Shown here one piece after another: positions 4,735 through 17,359 of a stretch of DNA of 20,394 bases. The translations under genes were made by a program, and so were the position numbers. The notes below the pieces were generated by a model, which was not told where the DNA came from, searched no databases, and saw only the letters and a list, made by a program, of their open reading frames with translations. The stretch is from positions 1-20,394 of IMG/VR virus record IMGVR_UViG_3300042560_001311; one strand, written 5' to 3'. Numbering within the stretch: position 1 is the first letter of the stretch; each line of letters starts with the position of its first letter. The DNA comes from a virus.

Positions 4735-5238
4735 GTGGATGACAACGGAACCAATCCTAGCACTAGCGCGGACGGCACGCAAGCCCTTTTTGTGGAAACC
4801 CGACAAATTTTTGGGGAGCCTGCCAGCAAGGCCAACAGCAGGAGACTTGTAAGGTTCGGAGGGATGTCCAGGCTGATCAAGAGCGAGAAGGCTTTGAGTT
4901 ATTCACAGGCGTTTCAACAGCAATGTGCCCCTGTGGATAACCCTACAACCCTGGATGTGTCCGTGGAGATCCACATCTGGTATTCCTCCCGAAGGCCGGA
5001 TCTGGACGAGAGCCTCATCTTGGATCTGCTTCAGGGAAGGCTCTATGTAAACGACAGGCAGGTCAAAGAGAAGCACATCTACTGGCATCAAGACAAGGAG
5101 TGCCCTCGGTGTGTCATCACGGTCAAAGAGATCCCGGGACAAAAAAAGACCCCGGGAGCGCGGCTCACCGGGGTCAAGACGCCAGGGGGGCGTCACAGGA
5201 GGGAGATCGCTCAAGCAACTGAGCGGAAGACAGTGTAG
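4735..5238 (+). CDS. rusA: RusA-like Holliday junction resolvase
   Basis: A 167-residue frame from GTG 4735 (good AAGGAG); GTG 4792 is an alternative that would remove ~19 unconserved residues. The RusA fold pattern is clear from ~residue 19: IFGEPASKANSRRLVRF, then RRPDLDESLILDLLQ (acidic residues D89 and D91), and LYVNDRQVKEKHIYW (D107). RusA dimers use these acidic residues and a Lys to cut four-way junctions symmetrically, which fits a neighbour of recombination genes. E. coli RusA is about 120 residues. Here the C-terminal ~35 residues after VITVKEI are basic and low-complexity and overlap a leftward terminator hairpin, so that tail may be dispensable. Confidence 0.8.
   Translation: MDDNGTNPSTSADGTQALFVETRQIFGEPASKANSRRLVRFGGMSRLIKSEKALSYSQAFQQQCAPVDNPTTLDVSVEIHIWYSSRRPDLDESLILDLLQGRLYVNDRQVKEKHIYWHQDKECPRCVITVKEIPGQKKTPGARLTGVKTPGGRHRREIAQATERKTV
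4754..4782 (-). promoter_or_regulatory. Leftward sigma70-type promoter for the recombination operon
   Basis: On the minus strand, -35 TTGCGT (4782-4777), a 17 bp spacer and -10 TAGGAT (4759-4754), preceded by an extended -10 TGC. Transcription would start near 4747, giving a ~24 nt leader with the AGGAGG site before TTG 4723. It lies inside the 5' end of the rusA frame, which favours a downstream rusA start or dual use. Confidence 0.5.
5141..5175 (-). terminator. Leftward Rho-independent terminator inside the rusA 3' end
   Basis: Perfect 8 bp arms GACCCCGG (5148-5155) and CCGGGGTC (5168-5175) with a 12-base loop. On the minus strand the stem is followed by seven T (5147-5141). On the plus strand no T-run follows, so it works leftward only. 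No leftward gene lies to its right before 5734, which points to an unannotated leftward transcript. Confidence 0.7.
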
Positions 5239-6293: not shown

Positions 6294-6526
6294 GGGACTA
6301 CAAGCAGGAGTACCAGACCCAGAAAGCGAGAGGTGAACACCCCTCTCGGATGGAGCGCCAAAGGGCCAGGAGAGCCCTGGATGCGAAGGGAGTGGACCGA
6401 GCGGGCAAGGACGTAGCGCACACCGTTGCGCTGTCCAAGGGCGGTTCAAACAAGGACGGGTACAGGCTGACCAGCCCCTCCAAGAACCGTAGCTTTCCAA
6501 GGAAGAAGGACGGGTCCATGAAGTGA
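6290..6526 (+). CDS. Small HNH-nuclease-like protein
   Basis: A 78-residue basic protein coupled to the upstream gene by ATGA. The C-terminal half, GKDVAHTVALSKGGSNKDGY then SPSKNRSFPRK, follows the D-x2-H...GGSN...KNRS pattern of small phage HNH-like proteins, where His and Asn form the beta-beta-alpha metal site. The first half is a charged helix (YKQEYQTQKARGEHPSRMER). HNH proteins cut DNA and in phages can act in packaging or recombination. Here the classic final His appears replaced, so it may be a reduced or non-catalytic version. It sits directly before the primase-helicase. Confidence 0.6.
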   Translation: MRDYKQEYQTQKARGEHPSRMERQRARRALDAKGVDRAGKDVAHTVALSKGGSNKDGYRLTSPSKNRSFPRKKDGSMK

Positions 6527-8205
6527 TAGCCCTCGACGGCATTCAGTTCCAAGACAACGACCGCGTGACCTGCCCCGAGTGCTCGGGAGACAGGAAAAAA
6601 ACAAGAAGCAAAGACATGACCCTGACCCGTAAAGAAGACGGGTCAGTGCTCTACTTTTGCCATCACTGCGGTGTAAACGGGATCATTCCAGTCCATCAAC
6701 ACAGGAAGGAGAGATTCGTGCAGGCGGTTCCCAAGATACAGGACGCATCGCTGACTGAAGAGCACTATCAATGGCTTGAGAGCCGAGGCATCTCAAGGCT
6801 GACAGCAGATGACGCAAAGCTCTTTTCAACGAGGAAATACTTCAACAAGCTAGACCGGGAGGAGGATGCCATTGGGTTCCCTTACTTCCGGGACGGAGCG
6901 ATGGTCGCAGCCAAGTACAGGGCTGTACCTGAGAAGGCATTTACACAGGATGCCGGAGGAGCGCATGATTTCTTCGGGATGCAATGGGCAGACAAGACAA
7001 AGCCTCTGGTCATAGTCGAAGGAGAGATCGATGTCCTCTCAGCAAGAGAGGCGGGCATCGATAACGTCGTGTCTGTACCCGGTGGTGCGCCGCTGAAGGT
7101 GGCAGATGGGAAAGTTCTCCCATCAGAGGACAAGAAGTTCGCATTTGTATGGAACGCACGGGAACTCCTGGACGCAGTTCCATACGTTGTCTTGGCTACA
7201 GACCAAGACCCTCCTGGGCAAGCGTTGGCCGAGGAGTTGGCTCGCCGGATTGGCAAAGACAAGTGCCGTCTTGCGAAGTTCGATGGGAAGGATTTCAACG
7301 AGATCCTCAATGACCCCTCTCGGAATGGCAAAGAGGATGTGCGGGGGATCGTGGAGGCGGCGGAGCCGTACCCCATCGCGGGCTTGTCGGATGCGTCCAC
7401 CTTCGCAGAGCGTGTAAACGAACTCTATACCCGAGGGCAAGGGTCGGGTTTCAGTACCGGCTACCCGGCACTCGACACCATCTACACAGTAGCCCCGGGT
7501 CAGTTGACCGTGGTCACCGGCTACCCATCCTCGGGCAAGTCGAACTTCGTTGATCAGCTAATGGTCAACCTAGCCCAGAAGAGTGATTGGAAGTTTGCGG
7601 TCGCGTCATTTGAGAACAGCCCAGAGATTCACATTAGCAGACTCATGGAGATCTACCTGCGGAAGCGGTTTTTTGAGGGCAGGGATCGCATGACGGAAGA
7701 GGAGAAGAACGAAGCGTTTACATGGGTCAAAGATCACTTCCTCTTCATTGACTCGGCGGGAGAAGAGCCCAACACCCTAGATTCCATCCTGACCAGGGCC
7801 AGGGCTGCAGTCAAAAGGATGGGGATCCGAGGGATGGTGATCGACCCATACAACTACATTGACCTTGACAGAAAGGACACCACAGAGACGGACGCTATCA
7901 GTCAGATGCTGACCAGGGTCCAGAGGTTCTGCAAGGCTCAGGACGTTCACACATGGTTCGTGGCCCATCCCTCAAAGATGCAGCGGTCAGGGACAGATCA
8001 ACCAAGACCGGATGGCATGAGCATCAGCGGGTCAATGGCATGGTGGGCCAAGGCAGACTGCGGCTTGACGGTCCACCGGCAGGATAGGTACGTCGAGATC
8101 GCAGTTTGGAAATGCCGGTATCGGTGGGTCGGGACGCAGGGGGAGACTACCCTCCTCTTCAACCGAACATCAGGCACCTACGTCGAGAACCTCGACGCCT
8201 TCTGA
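6523..8205 (+). CDS. T7 gp4-like DNA primase-helicase
   Basis: 560 residues, close to the 566 of T7 gp4, starting at GTG 6523 (GTGA overlap). Domains in order: zinc-binding domain with C17-x2-C20 and C46-HH-C49; TOPRIM primase core with VEGEID (165-170) and ATDQDPPG (D227, D229); RecA/DnaB-type helicase with Walker A GYPSSGKS (333-340), Walker B VIDPYNY (439-445) and a later FVAHPSKM motif. It should unwind the fork as a hexameric ring and prime the lagging strand. All key residues are present. It ends the rightward early operon and runs into the double hairpin at 8213. Confidence 0.92.
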   Translation: MIALDGIQFQDNDRVTCPECSGDRKKTRSKDMTLTRKEDGSVLYFCHHCGVNGIIPVHQHRKERFVQAVPKIQDASLTEEHYQWLESRGISRLTADDAKLFSTRKYFNKLDREEDAIGFPYFRDGAMVAAKYRAVPEKAFTQDAGGAHDFFGMQWADKTKPLVIVEGEIDVLSAREAGIDNVVSVPGGAPLKVADGKVLPSEDKKFAFVWNARELLDAVPYVVLATDQDPPGQALAEELARRIGKDKCRLAKFDGKDFNEILNDPSRNGKEDVRGIVEAAEPYPIAGLSDASTFAERVNELYTRGQGSGFSTGYPALDTIYTVAPGQLTVVTGYPSSGKSNFVDQLMVNLAQKSDWKFAVASFENSPEIHISRLMEIYLRKRFFEGRDRMTEEEKNEAFTWVKDHFLFIDSAGEEPNTLDSILTRARAAVKRMGIRGMVIDPYNYIDLDRKDTTETDAISQMLTRVQRFCKAQDVHTWFVAHPSKMQRSGTDQPRPDGMSISGSMAWWAKADCGLTVHRQDRYVEIAVWKCRYRWVGTQGETTLLFNRTSGTYVENLDAF

Positions 8206-10418: not shown

Positions 10419-10490
10419 TCAAATAATGCCAATCAACATAAGTGCCGCGACAACGGTGCAGAGAATCAGCAATAGGCGGTCGTCGTTCAT
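10419..10490 (-). CDS. Tiny single-transmembrane protein, 23 residues
   Basis: A 23-residue frame made almost entirely of one hydrophobic helix: a short acidic MNDDR start and then LLLILCTVVAALMLIGII. Its ATG 10490 overlaps the TGA of the VWA gene as ATGA, so it would be translated by coupling to that gene. The acidic N-terminus and helix suggest a small membrane peptide. Whether it is a membrane anchor or regulator of the adjacent AAA+/VWA machine, or unrelated, is unknown. Too short for confident prediction; the coupling is the main support. Confidence 0.45.
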   Translation of the reverse strand: MNDDRLLLILCTVVAALMLIGII

Positions 10491-12181
10491 TGCGAATCCC
10501 TCATCTGTCCGAAAGCCACGCGCCCTAGGTCTTCTAGACGGTCGACCTGCACCGCCGTGTTGCCATAGGTTTCGCTGACGTTGTGCCCGATTCCTAAGCC
10601 GATCACGCGGATGCCAAGCGCCCGGGCGGCCTCGATCTGGCGGGCGGTCGACCAGATGTTTCCGTCGCCGTCGCTGATGCTGATCAGGATCTTTCGCTGC
10701 GCGGGGTGGGCCATCAGGGCCTCGGTTGCGTAGCGTGCGGCTGCGTAGTCGTTGGTATCTCCCTGTCCGTGTAAACGACGCAAGTCCGGCAGCGCCTTGC
10801 GCCACGGCTGACCCCAACCCTTTAGGATCACCGAGTCGCTGCCGAATGCGATCAACATGGACTCACCACGCGCCTGTGCCACCGAGTCGAGCAGCGCGGC
10901 GCAGGTCGCTACCGCCAGACCTATGCGGGAAGTCTCCACCTTGTTCCGGATTCTGCTGAGGAGGTACTCGTCGTGCACTGTGCAGCCGCCCGCAGGGAAC
11001 ATCGAGCCCGAGACGTCCAGCATGATGCAGACCGCTGAGTCAATGCCATCGGTCGAGTGGCGGCGGGCGAATACTTCCCTTTTGCCAGTCGCCACGCTGG
11101 CGAGTGCGGGTCGGTGCAGGGTGCCGGACCGATAGCCTCCCTCGCGCCACTCGGTCGCGCTGTTCTCCAACATCTTGCGGACCTCCAAGCGCATGCGGGC
11201 CGGGACCGTTGCTTCTGTGGGCCAGATGTCCATCGGGGCGCAAGAGGGCAGGCGTGCTTGAAGTACTGACTCACGGGTGTAGGTTCCGCCGGGTGCGCTC
11301 TCCTCGGGCCTCGGTTGTGAGGGCTCTACCTCTCGCGCCTGCTGGTGCCCACTGGGGGCCCTAGCGGGGCCTGTAGGCGCGTCTTGCGGCTCACCCTTGG
11401 TTTGACCTTCGTCCTGGCCTTGCGCGTCTCCTGCGCCTTCCTGGCCGTCGCCCTGGCCGTTCTGTCCCTGGCTCCCTTGGTCGTCGCCTTGTCCGTCCTG
11501 GCTCTGGTCTTCGTCCTGGCTTCCATGGCCGTCGCCCTGGTCTTCGTCCTGTCCCTGGGGCGGCTGTTGCAGTTGGTCGAACACCCAACGGGCAAGCTCC
11601 AGCGTGTCGCTGGTCGAGTGGCAGGTGTCGAGTCTCGATGCGGCGGTGCGCCAGATCGGGATCAACTCGGCGGGCGTGGGTACGGTGTGACCGTAGTCGC
11701 GCAGGTAGACCGCAAGGCTGAACGGGTATTGCGCCGGGTCGGCCCAGTCGGTCACGCCTTCGCGGGCCTGGGTGACCATGGTCCCGAGCAGTTCGCGCAG
11801 CAACGCACCGATGTTGCCCGTCAGCCCTGCGCGGATGGCTTTGCGCTCGATCCAGGCGTCTTCGATGGCGTTGTGCAGGGTATCGACATAGCGCCGACCG
11901 TCGGACCATACAAAAGTTGTGAACTTCCGGTGTAAAAGCTCATGGACTACATAACCGGCGTAGTGATGGATAGTGGCGCGGGTGACGGTGGCGGCGTCTC
12001 CGATGTCGGACAAGATCATGTTTCCCGCTGCGTTGATTGCGGCGGTCTGGATGCGGCTCGACCATTGGATAGTGATCGGTGGCAGGCCGAGCGTCTTGCA
12101 CAGTCGATGCGCGAACGCCTCAAGCCCAGCCCGGGCCTCGATGCCGCGCATGGTGCGGCTCATAAGTAGATCGGTGGTCAC
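10487..12181 (-). CDS. CobT/DUF2201-like metallopeptidase-VWA protein
   Basis: 564 residues from GTG 12181 (GTGA overlap, GAGGAG upstream). The N-terminal part holds HELLH at 80-84 followed by NAIEDAWIE (E107 as a possible third zinc ligand), the layout of putative metallopeptidase domains that precede VWA domains. Residues ~205-270 are a Gln/Asp/Gly-rich linker. The VWA domain spans ~380-555 with the MIDAS motif DVSGSM (389-394), T477 and D504-D506. This architecture pairs with MoxR-type AAA+ ATPases, as in CobS-CobT chelatases and gas-vesicle or metal-insertion systems. The direct upstream partner is such an ATPase. Likely role: ATP-driven substrate or metal handling, or proteolysis. Substrate unknown. 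Confidence 0.8.
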   Translation of the reverse strand: MTTDLLMSRTMRGIEARAGLEAFAHRLCKTLGLPPITIQWSSRIQTAAINAAGNMILSDIGDAATVTRATIHHYAGYVVHELLHRKFTTFVWSDGRRYVDTLHNAIEDAWIERKAIRAGLTGNIGALLRELLGTMVTQAREGVTDWADPAQYPFSLAVYLRDYGHTVPTPAELIPIWRTAASRLDTCHSTSDTLELARWVFDQLQQPPQGQDEDQGDGHGSQDEDQSQDGQGDDQGSQGQNGQGDGQEGAGDAQGQDEGQTKGEPQDAPTGPARAPSGHQQAREVEPSQPRPEESAPGGTYTRESVLQARLPSCAPMDIWPTEATVPARMRLEVRKMLENSATEWREGGYRSGTLHRPALASVATGKREVFARRHSTDGIDSAVCIMLDVSGSMFPAGGCTVHDEYLLSRIRNKVETSRIGLAVATCAALLDSVAQARGESMLIAFGSDSVILKGWGQPWRKALPDLRRLHGQGDTNDYAAARYATEALMAHPAQRKILISISDGDGNIWSTARQIEAARALGIRVIGLGIGHNVSETYGNTAVQVDRLEDLGRVAFGQMRDSQ

Positions 12182-13695
12182 AGTGCGGACTCCTCGGATA
12201 CGAGTGCTTCATCGACGCATGCGCTGTAAACGGCTGCAAGTGCAGCTTCAGACTCGGCGGGCTGGCGGGCAGCGATTGCCGACCTCCAAGCCTCGGCCAC
12301 CGGCAGGACCCGGGCGGCCTCGATGAACGCCACCATCTGCCGGATGCTGGGGGCGTCGATGATGTCGCCGCTATCGACCTTCGACCGCAACACGCCCATG
12401 GCCGCGACTAGGTGCGTTGCCAGGGCGGGAGTGCATCCGGTGTGCCGGGTCAGTGCTTCGGCCTCGGTGGCAGCGTCGAGGTAGCGGAACGGGACCACTA
12501 GGGAGAACCGCTCGGAGAATGCGACGTTCATCGGCTGGACCCCGGCGTATCGTCCCGACGGATCACCCTGGGTCAGGTCATTGCTGGCGGCTAGGTAGAT
12601 GGTCCCCGGGGCGCGGTGCCAGACCTGACCGGCATAGGCAACCTGGGCTTGCCGCTCCAGGAAAGCGTTCAGCGCCGACAGTGCACCGGGTTGTCCCATG
12701 CCGACCTCGTCCAACAGGCAAACAGCGCCCGGGGTGGTGTATGCGGCCAGGACCGCGCCCGGTTCGAACACGGTCGAGCCGTTGCTGAGGCCGGTCGCTC
12801 CAAGGAAGTCGTCCCGAGTGCTGAAGCGGTCGAAGACGAAGCGCCGGAACATGCGCCCGGTGCGGGCGGCGAATTGCTGCGCCGTCTGAGTCTTGCCTGT
12901 GCCTGCTGGACCACCTAGCCATAGATTGCGCCCATGAGTCGCGGCGATGTGCAGGTGTCGCACGATGGACTCGGACCAAATGAAGCACGGGTCCACGGCT
13001 GGGGCCTCGGGGTGGGTGTAGGTTGCGAACATCAGCGGGTTGCCTTTGGCATCGGACAGGTCCAGGCCGAAAAGGGTGAGCGCCGACTGTCGCCCCGTGG
13101 GCGCTGCAGTGGCAGCGGCGACGATGCTGGGGGCCGTCTGCGGCGTGGCCTGGGCGATCAGGGGGGCGAGTGCCGCCCGCACCTGGGTGGCGATCTCCGC
13201 ATTGATCGCGGGGCCAGCATCGCGCAGCGCCTCGACCTCGGCTTTGATTCCGGCCCAAATGGTGGCCGATGCCCGGTCGGACGCCTCGGCCAGGGTCTTC
13301 AGGACTGCAACGGTCTGCGTGACCTGCGACACCGCAGTGCGGATAGACGCGACCTCCGCGCCCGTCCTGAGGGCCTCTTGCTCGGCCCGGGCTGCGACCT
13401 GGGCAGCGGCGTCGATCCTGGGATCGGGCTGGGGAGTGGAGGGGCGGGGAGGCTGGAAGGTGGGCTGCGGCAGGCCGACGGTAGCCGTGCCGATGGTGGC
13501 GGGGGGCTGGGCGATTACGCCCGAGACCGCCTGCCGCACCTGATCAATCGTGACTGTTCCACGGGAAACCTCGTTCGCAAGGGCCTGCGCGGCCTCGACC
13601 TTGTTTCGGTCGGCGGGGCCGACGATCAGGTTGGCGGCTCGGGCGAGTTGTGCCCCGGGCAGGGCGAGCAGGGTCTGAAGGACTCTGGTGTTCAT
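12178..13695 (-). CDS. MoxR/CobS-type AAA+ ATPase
   Basis: 505 residues from ATG 13695 (GAGGAG six bases upstream); GTG 13701 in frame overlaps the previous stop. Residues ~1-65 form a small helical domain, then a Pro-rich linker and a long Ala-rich helical/coiled region (~95-185). The AAA+ module has Walker A GPAGTGKT (262-269), Walker B CLLDEV (326-331), sensor 1 AASND (N372) and a SERF arginine finger (R396). The extended N-terminus is unlike the short MoxR proteins and may bind substrate or the membrane. It is in an operon with a VWA partner, which in this family couples ATP hydrolysis to remodelling of a target. Confidence 0.85.
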   Translation of the reverse strand: MNTRVLQTLLALPGAQLARAANLIVGPADRNKVEAAQALANEVSRGTVTIDQVRQAVSGVIAQPPATIGTATVGLPQPTFQPPRPSTPQPDPRIDAAAQVAARAEQEALRTGAEVASIRTAVSQVTQTVAVLKTLAEASDRASATIWAGIKAEVEALRDAGPAINAEIATQVRAALAPLIAQATPQTAPSIVAAATAAPTGRQSALTLFGLDLSDAKGNPLMFATYTHPEAPAVDPCFIWSESIVRHLHIAATHGRNLWLGGPAGTGKTQTAQQFAARTGRMFRRFVFDRFSTRDDFLGATGLSNGSTVFEPGAVLAAYTTPGAVCLLDEVGMGQPGALSALNAFLERQAQVAYAGQVWHRAPGTIYLAASNDLTQGDPSGRYAGVQPMNVAFSERFSLVVPFRYLDAATEAEALTRHTGCTPALATHLVAAMGVLRSKVDSGDIIDAPSIRQMVAFIEAARVLPVAEAWRSAIAARQPAESEAALAAVYSACVDEALVSEESAL

Positions 13696-13697
13696 GG

Positions 13698-14279
13698 TCA
13701 CTCCTCGTCGTTGGACTCAAGCTGGAACTGCTCACCATCCTGGGAGCAGAGGGGCAGACCTTTCTCGGCCCAGGTGCGGGTCAGCCTGATGGTGTAGCCG
13801 CACCCGGGGCAGACTGCCTTGAGCATGCGAGTCGATTGCTTTGGCTTGGCCGACATGATCAGGTGGGCGTGGGGATAGGGTCCGAGGTCGGCCAGGATGG
13901 CGCTGTAGCGGGCGTCGAATTCGGGGCCGGGGCCGGTGCTCTTCCAGCCCTTCGCGCCCGCGACTAGACCCATGTTCCAGGCATGGGCGGCGAACGTCTT
14001 GCTATGGTTCATCGAACCCGGCAGGGCGTGGCACAACTCGTGAATGAGGGTGGCGGCCACCGTGGTGACATCGTCCACGACCGGCGAGATGAGGATCTCG
14101 ACCGTCCCGTCGGCGCTGGAGGCGTCGGCCCAGCACTCGCCAATCGCGCCGCTGCGGCGGGCGCTGCTGGGGAATCCGCAGGCGACGCGGATGCGGGCGG
14201 GGAGGGACTGCCCAGTGTGGGCCGGGAACAGGGGGCGGACTTCGTCCACCAGTTGGGTAAGCCAGTCTTCGCGTGTCAT
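13698..14279 (-). CDS. SprT-like zinc metalloprotease
   Basis: 193 residues from ATG 14279 with AGGAGG five bases upstream. HELCH at 80-84 within VAATLIHELCHALPGS, plus H92 in MNHSKTF, matches the active site of SprT/Spartan-type gluzincin-like proteases (two His of HExxH and a third His). A C-terminal zinc-ribbon-like part has C157-x2-C160 and C178; a fourth ligand is not evident. SprT-like enzymes in eukaryotes degrade DNA-protein crosslinks; bacterial ones are poorly known. First gene of the leftward operon that continues with the AAA+ and metallopeptidase-VWA genes, so a role as the cutting subunit is an attractive inference. Confidence 0.8.
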   Translation of the reverse strand: MTREDWLTQLVDEVRPLFPAHTGQSLPARIRVACGFPSSARRSGAIGECWADASSADGTVEILISPVVDDVTTVAATLIHELCHALPGSMNHSKTFAAHAWNMGLVAGAKGWKSTGPGPEFDARYSAILADLGPYPHAHLIMSAKPKQSTRMLKAVCPGCGYTIRLTRTWAEKGLPLCSQDGEQFQLESNDEE

Positions 14280-14335
14280 AGAACCTCCTGCTACCTCCGC
14301 AGCACCCTGCTGCGGGGGCCCTTGCGGGCACCGCG

Positions 14336-14364
14336 AGCATACCGTGCAAACGAGCGTATGGCAA
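14336..14364 (-). promoter_or_regulatory. Leftward promoter for the SprT-AAA-VWA operon
   Basis: Minus strand -35 TTGCCA (14364-14359), 17 bp spacer, -10 TATGCT (14341-14336). Start would be near 14329, leaving a ~50 nt leader that includes the AGGAGG for ATG 14279. An inverted repeat lies just upstream of the -35 (14391-14414). Confidence 0.55.
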
Positions 14365-14390
14365 TAGGGGGTTGCATGGTGCTTGCACTA

Positions 14391-14435
14391 TCAGATCAGA
14401 GCCGGGTGATCTGACCAACGAACGTGCGCGCACGT
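14391..14435. repeat. Inverted repeats flanking the leftward promoter (operator candidates)
   Basis: TCAGATCA (14391-14398) and TGATCTGA (14407-14414) are perfect 8 bp arms around an 8-base spacer. Next to them ACGTGCGCGCACGT (14422-14435) is a perfect 14 bp palindrome. Further on, CTAGAACG occurs at 14498-14505 and 14508-14515, exactly 10 bp apart, and GTATG/CATAC arms lie at ~14480-14495. These look like protein-binding sites in the divergent control region. Confidence 0.5.
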
Positions 14436-14585
14436 GAGTAGCAGAACAGAATGACCAAGTAAACCCAAGGGCTATACCTGTATGGACGTACATACCGCTA
14501 GAACGCACTAGAACGGCCCAGGATCGACGCAAGGGGGCAGGACATGCCTTGCCCTTCAGAAAAATAGATCGGAGCTTCTAGCGAG

Positions 14586-14701
14586 TTGTTCACAAAGTTA
14601 TCCACAGGGGTTTCATAGGTAAATGCTCAAAAATGAGGCAAATCTAAGGCTTATCCACAGACTGTGGACAACTTGCGTCGTTTGAACAACCTGTGGATAA
14701 T
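14586..14701. other. DnaA-box cluster, candidate replication origin or DnaA-controlled switch
   Basis: Three perfect TTATCCACA boxes: 14598-14606 (+), 14651-14659 (+) and 14692-14700 (-). Two near-matches: TTGTCCACA at 14663-14671 (-) and TTGTTCACA at 14586-14594 (+). They lie in an AT-richer ~100 bp between the divergent leftward and rightward operons. Such clusters mark replication origins and DnaA-regulated promoters. The location between gene blocks favours an origin, but no phage initiator gene was seen nearby. Confidence 0.55.
14673..14701 (+). promoter_or_regulatory. Rightward promoter for terS, overlapping DnaA boxes
   Basis: -35 TTGCGT (14673-14678), 17 bp spacer, -10 GATAAT (14696-14701). 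The -10 lies inside a perfect DnaA box, and another near-box touches the -35, so DnaA binding should compete with RNA polymerase. The -35 is identical to that of the leftward promoter at 4754-4782. Confidence 0.5.
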
Positions 14702-14729
14702 GTGAACATCACTGGACAGATACACAGCT

Positions 14730-15383
14730 ATGTACAAAACCACAAGGGAAGACAGCGAGCCTGGGCCGCAGCGGGGTCGAGCGAGCCAGCGGGACGTGCT
14801 CGATGCACTCGCCCAGGCTGAGGCTGACCTGGACCGTTTACACGAAACAGAGCCCGGGCCGGTAGGTAGCGAAGCGGAACAGATGGCATGGGCTTCACCG
14901 GCACCGCACAAGAGGGCAGACGGGCAGTTGAAGGGTGCTCCCAGCTATCGTCGTCTCCGCCCGCTGACAGCCAAGCAACAGGACTTCGCAAGACGGGTCA
15001 TAGAGGGCAGCAGCCTCCGTCAGGCATATAGGGATGCCTATGGGTCCAGTGCCTCGGATGAGTCAGCGAGCGTCCAGGCATACCGGCTGGGGCGCAACCC
15101 GAGGATCAGGGCATTGATCGATCAAGCCTGGGAACAGACACAAGAGGCGCTGGTGGAGGACCACATAGCGGCGAGGAGGTACGTGGTGAGGAGTCTTGTG
15201 GAGCTGAGCAAAGGGACCGCTGACAACACCCGGCTGCGAGCCCTGGAGCTACTCGGCAAGGCCTCAGGCGCGTTTACACCAGCACCAGCCGAGCGTGACC
15301 GCACCGCGTCGCCTGACGCACTGCGCCGAGACCTAGCGCAGCACCTGCGCCTAGTGGGCAAGACCGGCACCGATGCCGGGTGA
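14730..15383 (+). CDS. terS: Terminase small subunit
   Basis: 217 residues from ATG 14730. The ribosome-binding site is weak, and GTG 14794 is an alternative start. After a charged N-terminal ~85 residues comes the signature LTAKQQDFARRVIEGSSLRQ AYRDAYG (split here; residues ~88-114), the helix-turn-helix of Terminase_2-type small subunits. It is followed by a helical oligomerisation region (VEDHIAARRYVVRSLVELSK). TerS binds the pac or cos site and feeds DNA to TerL, encoded 480 bp downstream. Codon use is GC-rich, like the left half of the window rather than like terL. The C-terminus is a basic, unstructured tail. Confidence 0.8.
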   Translation: MYKTTREDSEPGPQRGRASQRDVLDALAQAEADLDRLHETEPGPVGSEAEQMAWASPAPHKRADGQLKGAPSYRRLRPLTAKQQDFARRVIEGSSLRQAYRDAYGSSASDESASVQAYRLGRNPRIRALIDQAWEQTQEALVEDHIAARRYVVRSLVELSKGTADNTRLRALELLGKASGAFTPAPAERDRTASPDALRRDLAQHLRLVGKTGTDAG

Positions 15384-15545: not shown

Positions 15546-15586
15546 AAATCCACTCAAACATTCCACCTTAAATCCACTCAAACATT
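15546..15586. repeat. Two 17-bp direct repeats upstream of the LexA-like gene
   Basis: AAATCCACTCAAACATT at 15546-15562 and 15570-15586, 24 bp apart. The following ~70 bp are C-rich, with AT stretches such as TATATT at 15630. The repeats sit at the point where base composition changes from GC-rich to a more balanced one, so they may mark a recombination joint or a binding site for the adjacent gene product. Confidence 0.55.
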
Positions 15587-15663: not shown

Positions 15664-15924
15664 ATGGAAAACGCGGGATATATGTTGACGAAAAGGCAGC
15701 GGTTTGTCTTGGAGTTTATTGGGGCGTACAAGAGGAAGTGGGGGGTGGTTCCGACGTACAGGGTGATAGCGATAGGGTGCAAGGTGAGGTCATGTGGTGG
15801 CACGTACAGGTTGGTGAATGAACTGAGCCGAAAAGGTTATATATCCAAGGACAGAGGGCGGTATGACATTGTTATCGAGACAGGAGATCACCAGCTATCT
15901 GCAGATAGTGGACAAGGTGTCTGA
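15664..15924 (+). CDS. LexA-DNA-binding-domain-like protein
   Basis: 86 residues from ATG 15664 (ATG 15682 is an alternative with a better-placed GGGA). Residues ~8-58 (LTKRQRFVLEFIGAYKRKWG, then VPTYRVIAIGCKVRSCGG, then LVNELSRKGYI) follow the winged helix-turn-helix of the LexA N-terminal domain. There is no C-terminal Ser-Lys autopeptidase domain, so it cannot self-cleave. It could bind SOS-like operators or a phage operator, e.g. the direct repeats just upstream. Its last 62 nt overlap the start of terL. The lower GC content resembles terL, not terS. Inferred regulator. Confidence 0.65.
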   Translation: MENAGYMLTKRQRFVLEFIGAYKRKWGVVPTYRVIAIGCKVRSCGGTYRLVNELSRKGYISKDRGRYDIVIETGDHQLSADSGQGV

Positions 15925-17359
15925 GGGGGATAGGAAGAAGATCAAGGCTTTGTTGGAGATGGACAGGGTACAGAGGTGCCGGGAGAGTTTTTTGTTCTTT
16001 GTGAAGCAGATGTGGCCGGTGTTTATCTCGGGGAAGCATCATCAGATCATGGCTGATGCTTTTGAGAGGGTGGCTAATGGGGAGTTGAAGAGGTTGATTA
16101 TCAATATGCCTCCGAGACACACGAAGAGTGAGTTTGCTTCGTATTTGTTGCCGGCGTGGTTTCTTGGGAAGTTTCCTGAGAAGAAGATCATTCAGACGGC
16201 ACATACGGCGGAGTTGGCTGTGGGGTTTGGACGGAAGGTCAGGAACCTTGTGTCTTCTGAGGATTATGGGAAGGTGTTTCAGACGAAGTTGTCTAGTGAT
16301 TCGAAGGCTGCGGGGAGGTGGAACACGGACAAGGGTGGGGATTATTTTGCCATTGGTGTTGGTGGTGCTGTGACGGGTAAGGGTGCTGATCTGTTGATCA
16401 TTGATGATCCTCACAGTGAGCAGGAGGCAAAGCAGGGCAACCCTGCGGTGTATGACGCTGTGTATGAGTGGTATACGTCGGGTCCGAGACAGCGGTTGCA
16501 GCCTGGGGGTTCTATTATTGTTGTGATGACCCGGTGGTCTAAGAGGGATCTTACGGGTCAGATATTGAAGAACTCATCGAAGGATGGCACTGATGATTGG
16601 GAGGTGATTGAGTTTCCCGCCATTCTTCCTTCTGGCACTCCTTTGTGGCCTGGGTTTTGGAAGAAGGAGGAGTTGGAATCTATCAAGGCTGAGATTCCTG
16701 TAGCTAAATGGGAGGCTCAGTATCAACAGAATCCCACCTCTGAGGAGGGGGCGATAATCAAGAGGGATTATTGGAAGATATGGGAGAGTGAGAAACCTCC
16801 TTCTTGCGAATACATCATTCAGTCTTGGGACACGGCATTTGAGACGTCAAACCGTGCTGACTATTCGGCATGTACCACTTGGGGGGTATTTGAGAGGGAA
16901 GACAGGCATGGGAATATGGTTCCAAATGTCATATTGCTGGATGCTTTGAAGATCAGATTGGAGTTTCCTGATTTGAAGAAGAAGGCGATAGAGATGTATA
17001 GGGAGTGGAGTCCTGACACCACGATCATTGAGAAGAGGGCTGCTGGTGCTCCGTTGGTGTATGAGTTGCGCAAGGTGGGTGTTCCGGTGTCGGAGTACAC
17101 GCCTTACAAGGGGCAGGACAAGATTGCCCGGGTGAACTCGATAGCGGATCTGTTTGCTTCTGGGATGGTCTGGAGGCCGGATACGCGCTGGGCTGAGGAG
17201 GTTGCTGAGGAGATGGCAGCGTTTCCTCATGGAGAGCATGATGACCTGACGGACTCTGCTTCGCAGGCTCTGATGAGGTTCCGCAAGGGAGGGTTTATCT
17301 CGATTGAGACGGATGAGCCGGAAGAGGCTGTTGACAGAAGGCGCGTCGGGTATTATTGA
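15863..17359 (+). CDS. terL: Terminase large subunit
   Basis: 498 residues from ATG 15863, preceded by GAGGG. The N-terminal ATPase has Walker A PPRHTKS (83-89), Walker B LLIIDDP (177-183) and the coupling motif VMTRW (221-225). The C-terminal RNase H-like nuclease has D323 (SWDTAF), E390 (IIEKRAAG) and D460-D461 (HDDLTD). This is the Terminase_6/6C organisation; the length is normal. It packages DNA into the procapsid through the portal and cuts the concatemer. Codon use is clearly different from terS, with many T-ending codons, suggesting a separate origin for this segment. An N-terminal ~32-residue extension before MDRVQRC could be optional. Confidence 0.92.
   Translation: MTLLSRQEITSYLQIVDKVSEGDRKKIKALLEMDRVQRCRESFLFFVKQMWPVFISGKHHQIMADAFERVANGELKRLIINMPPRHTKSEFASYLLPAWFLGKFPEKKIIQTAHTAELAVGFGRKVRNLVSSEDYGKVFQTKLSSDSKAAGRWNTDKGGDYFAIGVGGAVTGKGADLLIIDDPHSEQEAKQGNPAVYDAVYEWYTSGPRQRLQPGGSIIVVMTRWSKRDLTGQILKNSSKDGTDDWEVIEFPAILPSGTPLWPGFWKKEELESIKAEIPVAKWEAQYQQNPTSEEGAIIKRDYWKIWESEKPPSCEYIIQSWDTAFETSNRADYSACTTWGVFEREDRHGNMVPNVILLDALKIRLEFPDLKKKAIEMYREWSPDTTIIEKRAAGAPLVYELRKVGVPVSEYTPYKGQDKIARVNSIADLFASGMVWRPDTRWAEEVAEEMAAFPHGEHDDLTDSASQALMRFRKGGFISIETDEPEEAVDRRRVGYY

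Follow-up and report, generated by a model that had tools for sequence, protein, structure and literature searches.

How replication starts in phages without a polymerase or a known initiator, and how their late genes sense replication, are questions that stand open in most uncultured lineages. Both are raised by a cluster of DnaA boxes found between two operons of a tailed phage, within the window analyzed here, i.e., the whole 20,394-base stretch corresponding to IMG/VR record IMGVR_UViG_3300042560_001311. A compact conserved element in which a candidate origin and the packaging promoter are linked through host DnaA would make both questions testable with one fragment.

According to ORF, Pfam, and PHROGs analyses, the products encoded in the window include a Sak annealing protein, a PD-(D/E)XK nuclease, RusA, a Toprim + DnaB_C primase-helicase, a MoxR-like ATPase, a VWA protein, TerS, a LexA-type DNA-binding protein, and TerL, the primase-helicase being the sole fork enzyme recognized (Table 1). 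The cluster region is divergent since the ORF on its left is read leftward and terS rightward. The left-hand ORF had no match in the Pfam search; it contains a HELCH motif that we take, by eye, to be zinc-metallopeptidase-like and SprT-like. About 300 bp of noncoding DNA to the left of the boxes (14280-14585), with blocks such as GTGAGTAGCAG and GACCAAGTAAA kept in close relatives, probably serves as promoter region for the leftward operon. Further left, a leftward MoxR-like ATPase and VWA pair (10487-13701) is CobS/CobT-like by PHROGs, and the annotation of cyanophage MinM2 also has MoxR and VWA genes.

Table 1. Coordinates of the cluster, its predicted elements, and reference genes in the window
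Feature	Position	Strand	Basis
Toprim + DnaB_C primase-helicase	6523-8205	+	Pfam
Leftward ORF, 193 aa	13698-14279	-	phrog_6361 (function not assigned), E 3e-41
13-mer-like element GATCTATTTTTCT	14558-14570	-	Sequence; same or near-identical in six of seven close relatives aligned (deletion there in L007)
DnaA box 1, TTGTTCACA, two mismatches	14586-14594	+	Pattern and eye; kept in close relatives retaining the stretch (TTGTCCACA in L014)
DnaA box 2, TTATCCACA, perfect	14598-14606	+	Pattern search; alignment with close relatives
Candidate DNA-unwinding region between left and right boxes	14607-14650	.	Computed stability
DnaA box 3, TTATCCACA, perfect	14651-14659	+	Pattern search; alignment with close relatives
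DnaA box 4, TTGTCCACA, one mismatch	14663-14671	-	Pattern search; alignment with close relatives; centre at about -41 of the putative terS promoter
Putative -35 of terS promoter, TTGCGT (3 of 6 vs consensus)	14673-14678	+	17-bp spacing
DnaA box 5, TTATCCACA, perfect	14692-14700	-	Pattern search; its GATAA is the first five bases of the putative -10
Putative -10 of terS promoter, GATAAT	14696-14701	+	Conservation; followed by conserved GTGAAC 14702-14707 (GYGAAC in most relatives)
Degenerate sixth site ATGTTCACA	14701-14709	-	Read from sequence; abuts box 5; also seen in relative L263
terS, small terminase subunit; first gene of rightward packaging/late block	14730-15383	+	Pfam PF03592 (Terminase_2), E 9.9e-7
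terL, large terminase subunit; anchor for finding relatives	15863-17359	+	Pfam and relative search

An earlier note on this DNA had described three perfect and two near DnaA boxes within 115 bp between divergent operons, and these were confirmed over exactly 115 bp (14586-14700). The boxes at 14586 and 14598 stand in tandem on the left, those at 14651 and 14663 form an inverted pair spaced by 12 bp start to start, and one more is located at 14692. When up to one mismatch was allowed, the window contained 8 box matches versus 2.57 expected, a number reached in 1 of 100 shuffles, and none of 2000 Markov-1 simulations of the window had more than one perfect box in any 115-bp stretch. The boxes are thus clustered beyond chance, as in oriC-type origins. 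When repeated 9-mers were counted over 300 bp in the window, the box, with 3 copies, shared the top rank with repeats near 11.4 kb, and no other array was found at the cluster. A lone perfect TTATCCACA (4932-4940) occurs inside the rusA ORF, where TTATTCACA is present as well (4899-4940), near the minimum of cumulative skew of the window. These two sites are probably due to chance, since in the relative G004 a single TT[AG]TNCACA site, at 58387, lies outside the cluster.

A TerL search of viral_contigs returned 80 relatives. From 81 loci, 41 extended 1800 bases or more upstream of terL, and 34 were nonredundant after removal of near-copies. Counting boxes as TT[AG]TNCACA within 300 bp upstream of terS, at least three were present in 29 of the 34 and at least two in 32, the others being L062 with one box and L043 with none. 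Boxes, spacing, and intervening DNA all align in the closest relatives; in more distant ones, single boxes have been turned over, such that their number, order, and orientation differ, and the array is still found upstream of terS. Arrays reach 7 to 8 boxes over 200 to 300 bp in relatives, and neighboring boxes are mostly 11 to 13 bp apart. Of the 57 perfect boxes present in 18 whole records, 54 belong to the cluster (G006:23400, G012:23129, and G012:23196 lie outside it; G018 has no perfect box), and a reversed control pattern gave 2 matches in all. Across the 33 loci used for a box profile (all but the boxless L043), the 6,269 bp of cluster DNA contain 93 perfect boxes versus 0.13 expected from the remaining DNA of these loci, along with the variants TTGTCCACA (31), TTATTCACA (7), and TTATGCACA (3). 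Position 8 is invariant and positions 3 and 5 are the most variable, a substitution pattern that matches the tolerance expected of DnaA. Searches with the cluster sequence found no relatives among phages and no informative plasmid match. The record carrying L007 (G001, 95467 bases) exceeds those of the other relatives in length, and a second copy of its first 40 bases is present at 65721, without a second box cluster; chimerism or partial duplication of this contig is possible.

The identity of the protein binding these boxes was then considered. The DnaA domain IV family (Bac_DnaA_C) was detected in none of 18 phage records, with the control positive for 10 of the 14 named genomes. A scan of 84,980 species, each represented by one genome, for the inverted box pair of the close relatives yielded 37 stretches, 16 of which contain, within the same stretch (at most 8 kb), a DnaA-type P-loop (13 GGxGLGKTHL and 3 GASGLGKTHL, the latter in Nocardia), motifs that we take to mark DnaA. 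The paired-box signature is thus one that bacteria keep near dnaA. Because the boxes are conserved through turnover, their degeneracy is DnaA-like, and the phages have no DnaA domain of their own, host DnaA is by far the likeliest binder, and very likely does bind, the box consensus being assumed for the host. No tRNA genes that could point to the host were found in 12 stretches of four records.

The earlier note had also described one box as covering the -10 of the terS promoter and another as touching its -35. The former holds, as box 5 covers most of the putative GATAAT hexamer; the latter holds in part, given that box 4 abuts TTGCGT but stops one base short and does not overlap it. The promoter call itself rests on conservation across relatives, since the -35 agrees with consensus at no more than 3 of 6 positions and a 9-of-12 promoter scan of the window did not return the site among its matches. 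Where the array ends on its right side, a -10-like hexamer followed by GYGAAC or GCRTAC occurs in 31 of the 34 relatives (the element is absent from L043, L062, and L076). The element appears to be a sigma70-type promoter for terS, because several relatives show near-consensus -35 hexamers at 16 to 18 bp (e.g., TTGACA in L028 and L046; TTGACG in L026, L020, and L082). None of the 31 relatives with the element has a box to the right of the -10, and in 26 of them a box overlaps the promoter core, the overlapping or abutting position expected of a DnaA-controlled promoter; no box does so in the other five (L020, L026, L028, L030, and L084). The box TGTGGATAA itself forms the start of GATAAT (GACAAT in L060) in 14 of the 31, as it does in the window, and this arrangement requires at least five changes on the TerL tree, four of them forced by well-supported branches, meaning that it has arisen or been lost repeatedly. 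The centre of box 4 near -41, beside a weak -35, is an activator-like place and box 5 on the -10 a repressor-like one, so the sequence would fit a putative DnaA effect on terS in either direction. Control of the terS promoter by DnaA is plausible, with the recurrent architecture in its favor.

The conserved array, with boxes often in pairs 11 to 13 bp apart, lies beside unusually unstable DNA. Computed stability near the cluster is lowest in a 120-bp stretch centred at 14613, which ranks at the 99.98 percentile of the window, and the corresponding 120-bp stretches of six relatives rank at the 98.6 to 99.9 percentile of instability. Unstable DNA is thus found at most 150 bp from the boxes in 7 of 7 sequences (98.6 to 99.98 percentile), and an AT-rich, easily opened stretch beside the boxes is a trait of oriC-type origins. 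The element GATCTATTTTTCT resembles the AT-rich 13-mer of E. coli oriC (consensus GATCTNTTNTTTT) and points away from the boxes, unlike the 13-mer in E. coli; with one near match in the wrong orientation, it was set aside as origin evidence. Inspection of the window by eye revealed no convincing run of DnaA-trio elements. The turn in GC skew typical of oriC-type origins, which the earlier note would have counted as support, was not seen at the cluster: cumulative extremes lie 3 to 9 kb away in the near-complete relatives G004, G006, G011, and G012, among which convincing end overlaps, i.e., circular closure, were found only in G004 and G012. Transcription direction confounds skew in phages. 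In the window, the minimum falls near 4.2 to 4.5 kb, where gene direction changes, and skew was rejected as an origin marker.

Phages bearing the array have no recognizable DNA polymerase or DnaA-type DNA-binding domain. In eight long relatives, PolA, PolB, and PolIII-alpha were each detected in 0 of 8, as was integrase. For the 59 ORFs of G004, no polymerase was present among the 25 families listed of 30 for Pfam and the 25 listed of 121 for PHROGs, and its large ORFs, checked singly, were structural or without assigned function. All 12 records with a perfect-box cluster (the eight long relatives, G019, G020, G022, and G024) are without PolA, and the cluster was found in 0 of 8 PolA-bearing TerL cousins (023Pt_psg01, HTVC027P, DSL-LC04, HTVC023P, and contigs G034-G037), a count that for the four named phages (W01-W04) covers only 34 to 41 kb. 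For HTVC023P-type pelagiphages, the passages available from PMC9599517 list the polymerase among core genes and do not mention DnaA. A strict rule by which absence of a polymerase means presence of the cluster was rejected, since PolA-less genomes without a perfect-box cluster exist (G025, G027, G029-G033, G038, and MinM2) and the unrelated 180-kb G040 has boxes and PolA together; G039-G041 were retrieved through the box-pair pattern and left out of the polymerase counts. The association is a tendency and no rule. From 80 primase loci, 57 were taken forward, 9 of which were left out for short flanks, and at least three boxes were found in 23 of the 48 primase-helicase relatives counted. Because several PolA-less primase-helicase relatives have no cluster, another replication start is possible in the wider group. 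Other box spellings in 18 cluster-negative relatives gave nothing convincing, with an ATATCCACA pair present in L312, L319, and L320. MinM2, in which no PolA was found, has no cluster of the cyanobacterial box TTTTCCACA in the 25.9 kb searched, and its repeats are unremarkable.

We give about even chances to the reading that the cluster is an oriC-like phage origin to which host DnaA binds, joined to a packaging promoter that responds to DnaA; origin function taken by itself appears somewhat likelier than not. Early on, DnaA-ATP would fill the boxes and open the AT-rich gap (14607-14650 in the window), the phage primase-helicase or host DnaB would load at the opened stretch, and host polymerase III would then copy the genome from the cluster as phage origin. 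High DnaA occupancy per genome would at that stage cover and block the -10 of terS. Later, as copies multiply, the limited DnaA would be spread over more boxes and the terS promoter freed. By running into this promoter, the array would let DnaA occupancy time the expression of packaging genes, and phage late timing would be tied directly to the replication licence of the host. The complete scenario, i.e., a lytic lineage without its own DNA polymerase that uses an oriC mimic bound by host DnaA together with a copy-number clock, in which one box is the packaging -10 and terS is released once replicated genomes dilute DnaA, is put forward tentatively and is rather unlikely to hold in every part. 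The proposal of the earlier note that host DnaA could both initiate phage replication and repress late transcription is partly supported by comparative inference (likeliest binder, oriC-like anatomy, and terS-promoter overlap in several lineages), with skew speaking against it.

The boxes might instead serve regulation only, with DnaA or DnaA-ATP controlling the terS/late promoter, possibly along with the divergent operon, thereby reporting the host cell cycle or phage copy number while the origin lies elsewhere. This possibility, which we hold to be on the unlikely side, agrees with boxes that crowd the promoter and end at its -10, with the repeated gain or loss of the box on the -10 (14/31, at least five tree changes), and with a skew that does not mark the cluster as origin, and passages of the literature offer precedents in repression of mioC by DnaA (PMC5835720), activation of lambda pR (PMC3698200), and CtrA sites in phage promoters (PMC9437464). 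However, up to 7 to 8 boxes over 200 to 300 bp exceed what a promoter needs, the boxes adjoin unusually unstable DNA, and the lack of a recognized phage polymerase points to a role in replication.

Dense boxes of the high-affinity type in a multiplying genome could also act as a decoy, each phage copy titrating DnaA like a datA-type sink, halting new rounds at the host oriC, and freeing replisomes. Titration of DnaA by box-bearing plasmids is known (passages of PMC5835720), but a decoy has no need for a fixed place by one promoter or for 11- to 13-bp pairing, both seen in most of the 34 relatives, and we consider it improbable. It is less probable still that DnaA is uninvolved and that a phage protein with DnaA-like specificity, or another host factor, binds the sites: many phage ORFs have no assigned function and the case for DnaA binding is built on sequence, yet Bac_DnaA_C is absent from the 18 records, the substitutions follow the DnaA-box pattern, and 16 of the 37 bacterial stretches with the paired signature have it close to dnaA. 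Isolated boxes such as that at 4932-4940 do arise by chance, but chance or coding constraint as the source of the whole cluster is already refuted in practice by the simulations (0/2000) and by the 29 of 34 relatives with at least three boxes.

Compared with bacterial oriC, the phage cluster similarly has several R-type boxes in close pairs by AT-rich unstable DNA and a paired signature like that near bacterial dnaA; it differs in being located at a packaging promoter, in spanning 115 bp only, and in having no skew turn and no dnaA/dnaN neighbor, and its unwinding region is a prediction. Phage lambda initiates replication with its O protein. In lambda pR/pO, host DnaA acts at a phage promoter tied to replication (passages of PMC3985674 and PMC3698200), as proposed for the cluster, whereas pO has two box-like sites only, at an early promoter, and the cluster lies at the packaging promoter. 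The origin of P1 has DnaA boxes, and P1/RK2-type plasmid and prophage origins resemble the cluster as extrachromosomal elements with host DnaA boxes by an AT-rich unwinding region (passages of PMC5043065). They require an element-coded Rep and iterons, neither of which came to notice here. Initiator titration with promoter derepression is established in E. coli, where the mioC/dnaA promoters carry a box and repression is lifted by titration (passages of PMC5835720); in the phage, terS is the candidate for such control and titration would be exerted by the phage DNA. As with CtrA, a host cell-cycle regulator whose sites are focused at phage promoters, the boxes sit at a putative promoter, the candidate regulator here being DnaA. 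According to the same passages (PMC9437464), DnaA sites showed no asymmetry of position in the Alphaproteobacteria phages scanned, which makes the focusing of boxes upstream of terS notable. The origin of Pseudomonas phage PseuGes_254 was also predicted from DnaA boxes, by Ori-Finder; it is a single software prediction, with neither conserved-array evidence nor promoter overlap in the passages available (PMC11512268). Within the parts of the literature that our search covered, we found no description of DnaA boxes arrayed at the promoter of a terminase gene.

Box clusters extend beyond this lineage, into unrelated viral contigs. For each of two arrangements, pairs of perfect boxes were present in at least 120 viral stretches, and among 156 viral pair loci that were read, 60 had at least four boxes in 400 bp, none had a DnaA P-loop, and 23 were relatives of this phage. 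Because the same kind of cluster is found in unrelated viral contigs, the use of host DnaA by phages may be common and under-reported. One locus, L519, unrelated by terL, terS, and primase, has 24 DnaA-type boxes within 400 bp (around 7065-7191) and no DnaA P-loop.

Two further features were observed downstream of the terS promoter. An 86-aa protein encoded between terS and terL (15664-15924) has only a PF01726 LexA DNA-binding domain (E 3.6e-8), with no peptidase domain listed, and is a possible regulator of the late block. In the DNA separating terS from this LexA-type gene, two perfect 17-bp direct repeats AAATCCACTCAAACATT (15546-15562 and 15570-15586, 24 bp start to start) are possibly an operator or a packaging site, and in G004 the 9-mer CCACTCAAA is found three times near 417, close to its terS.
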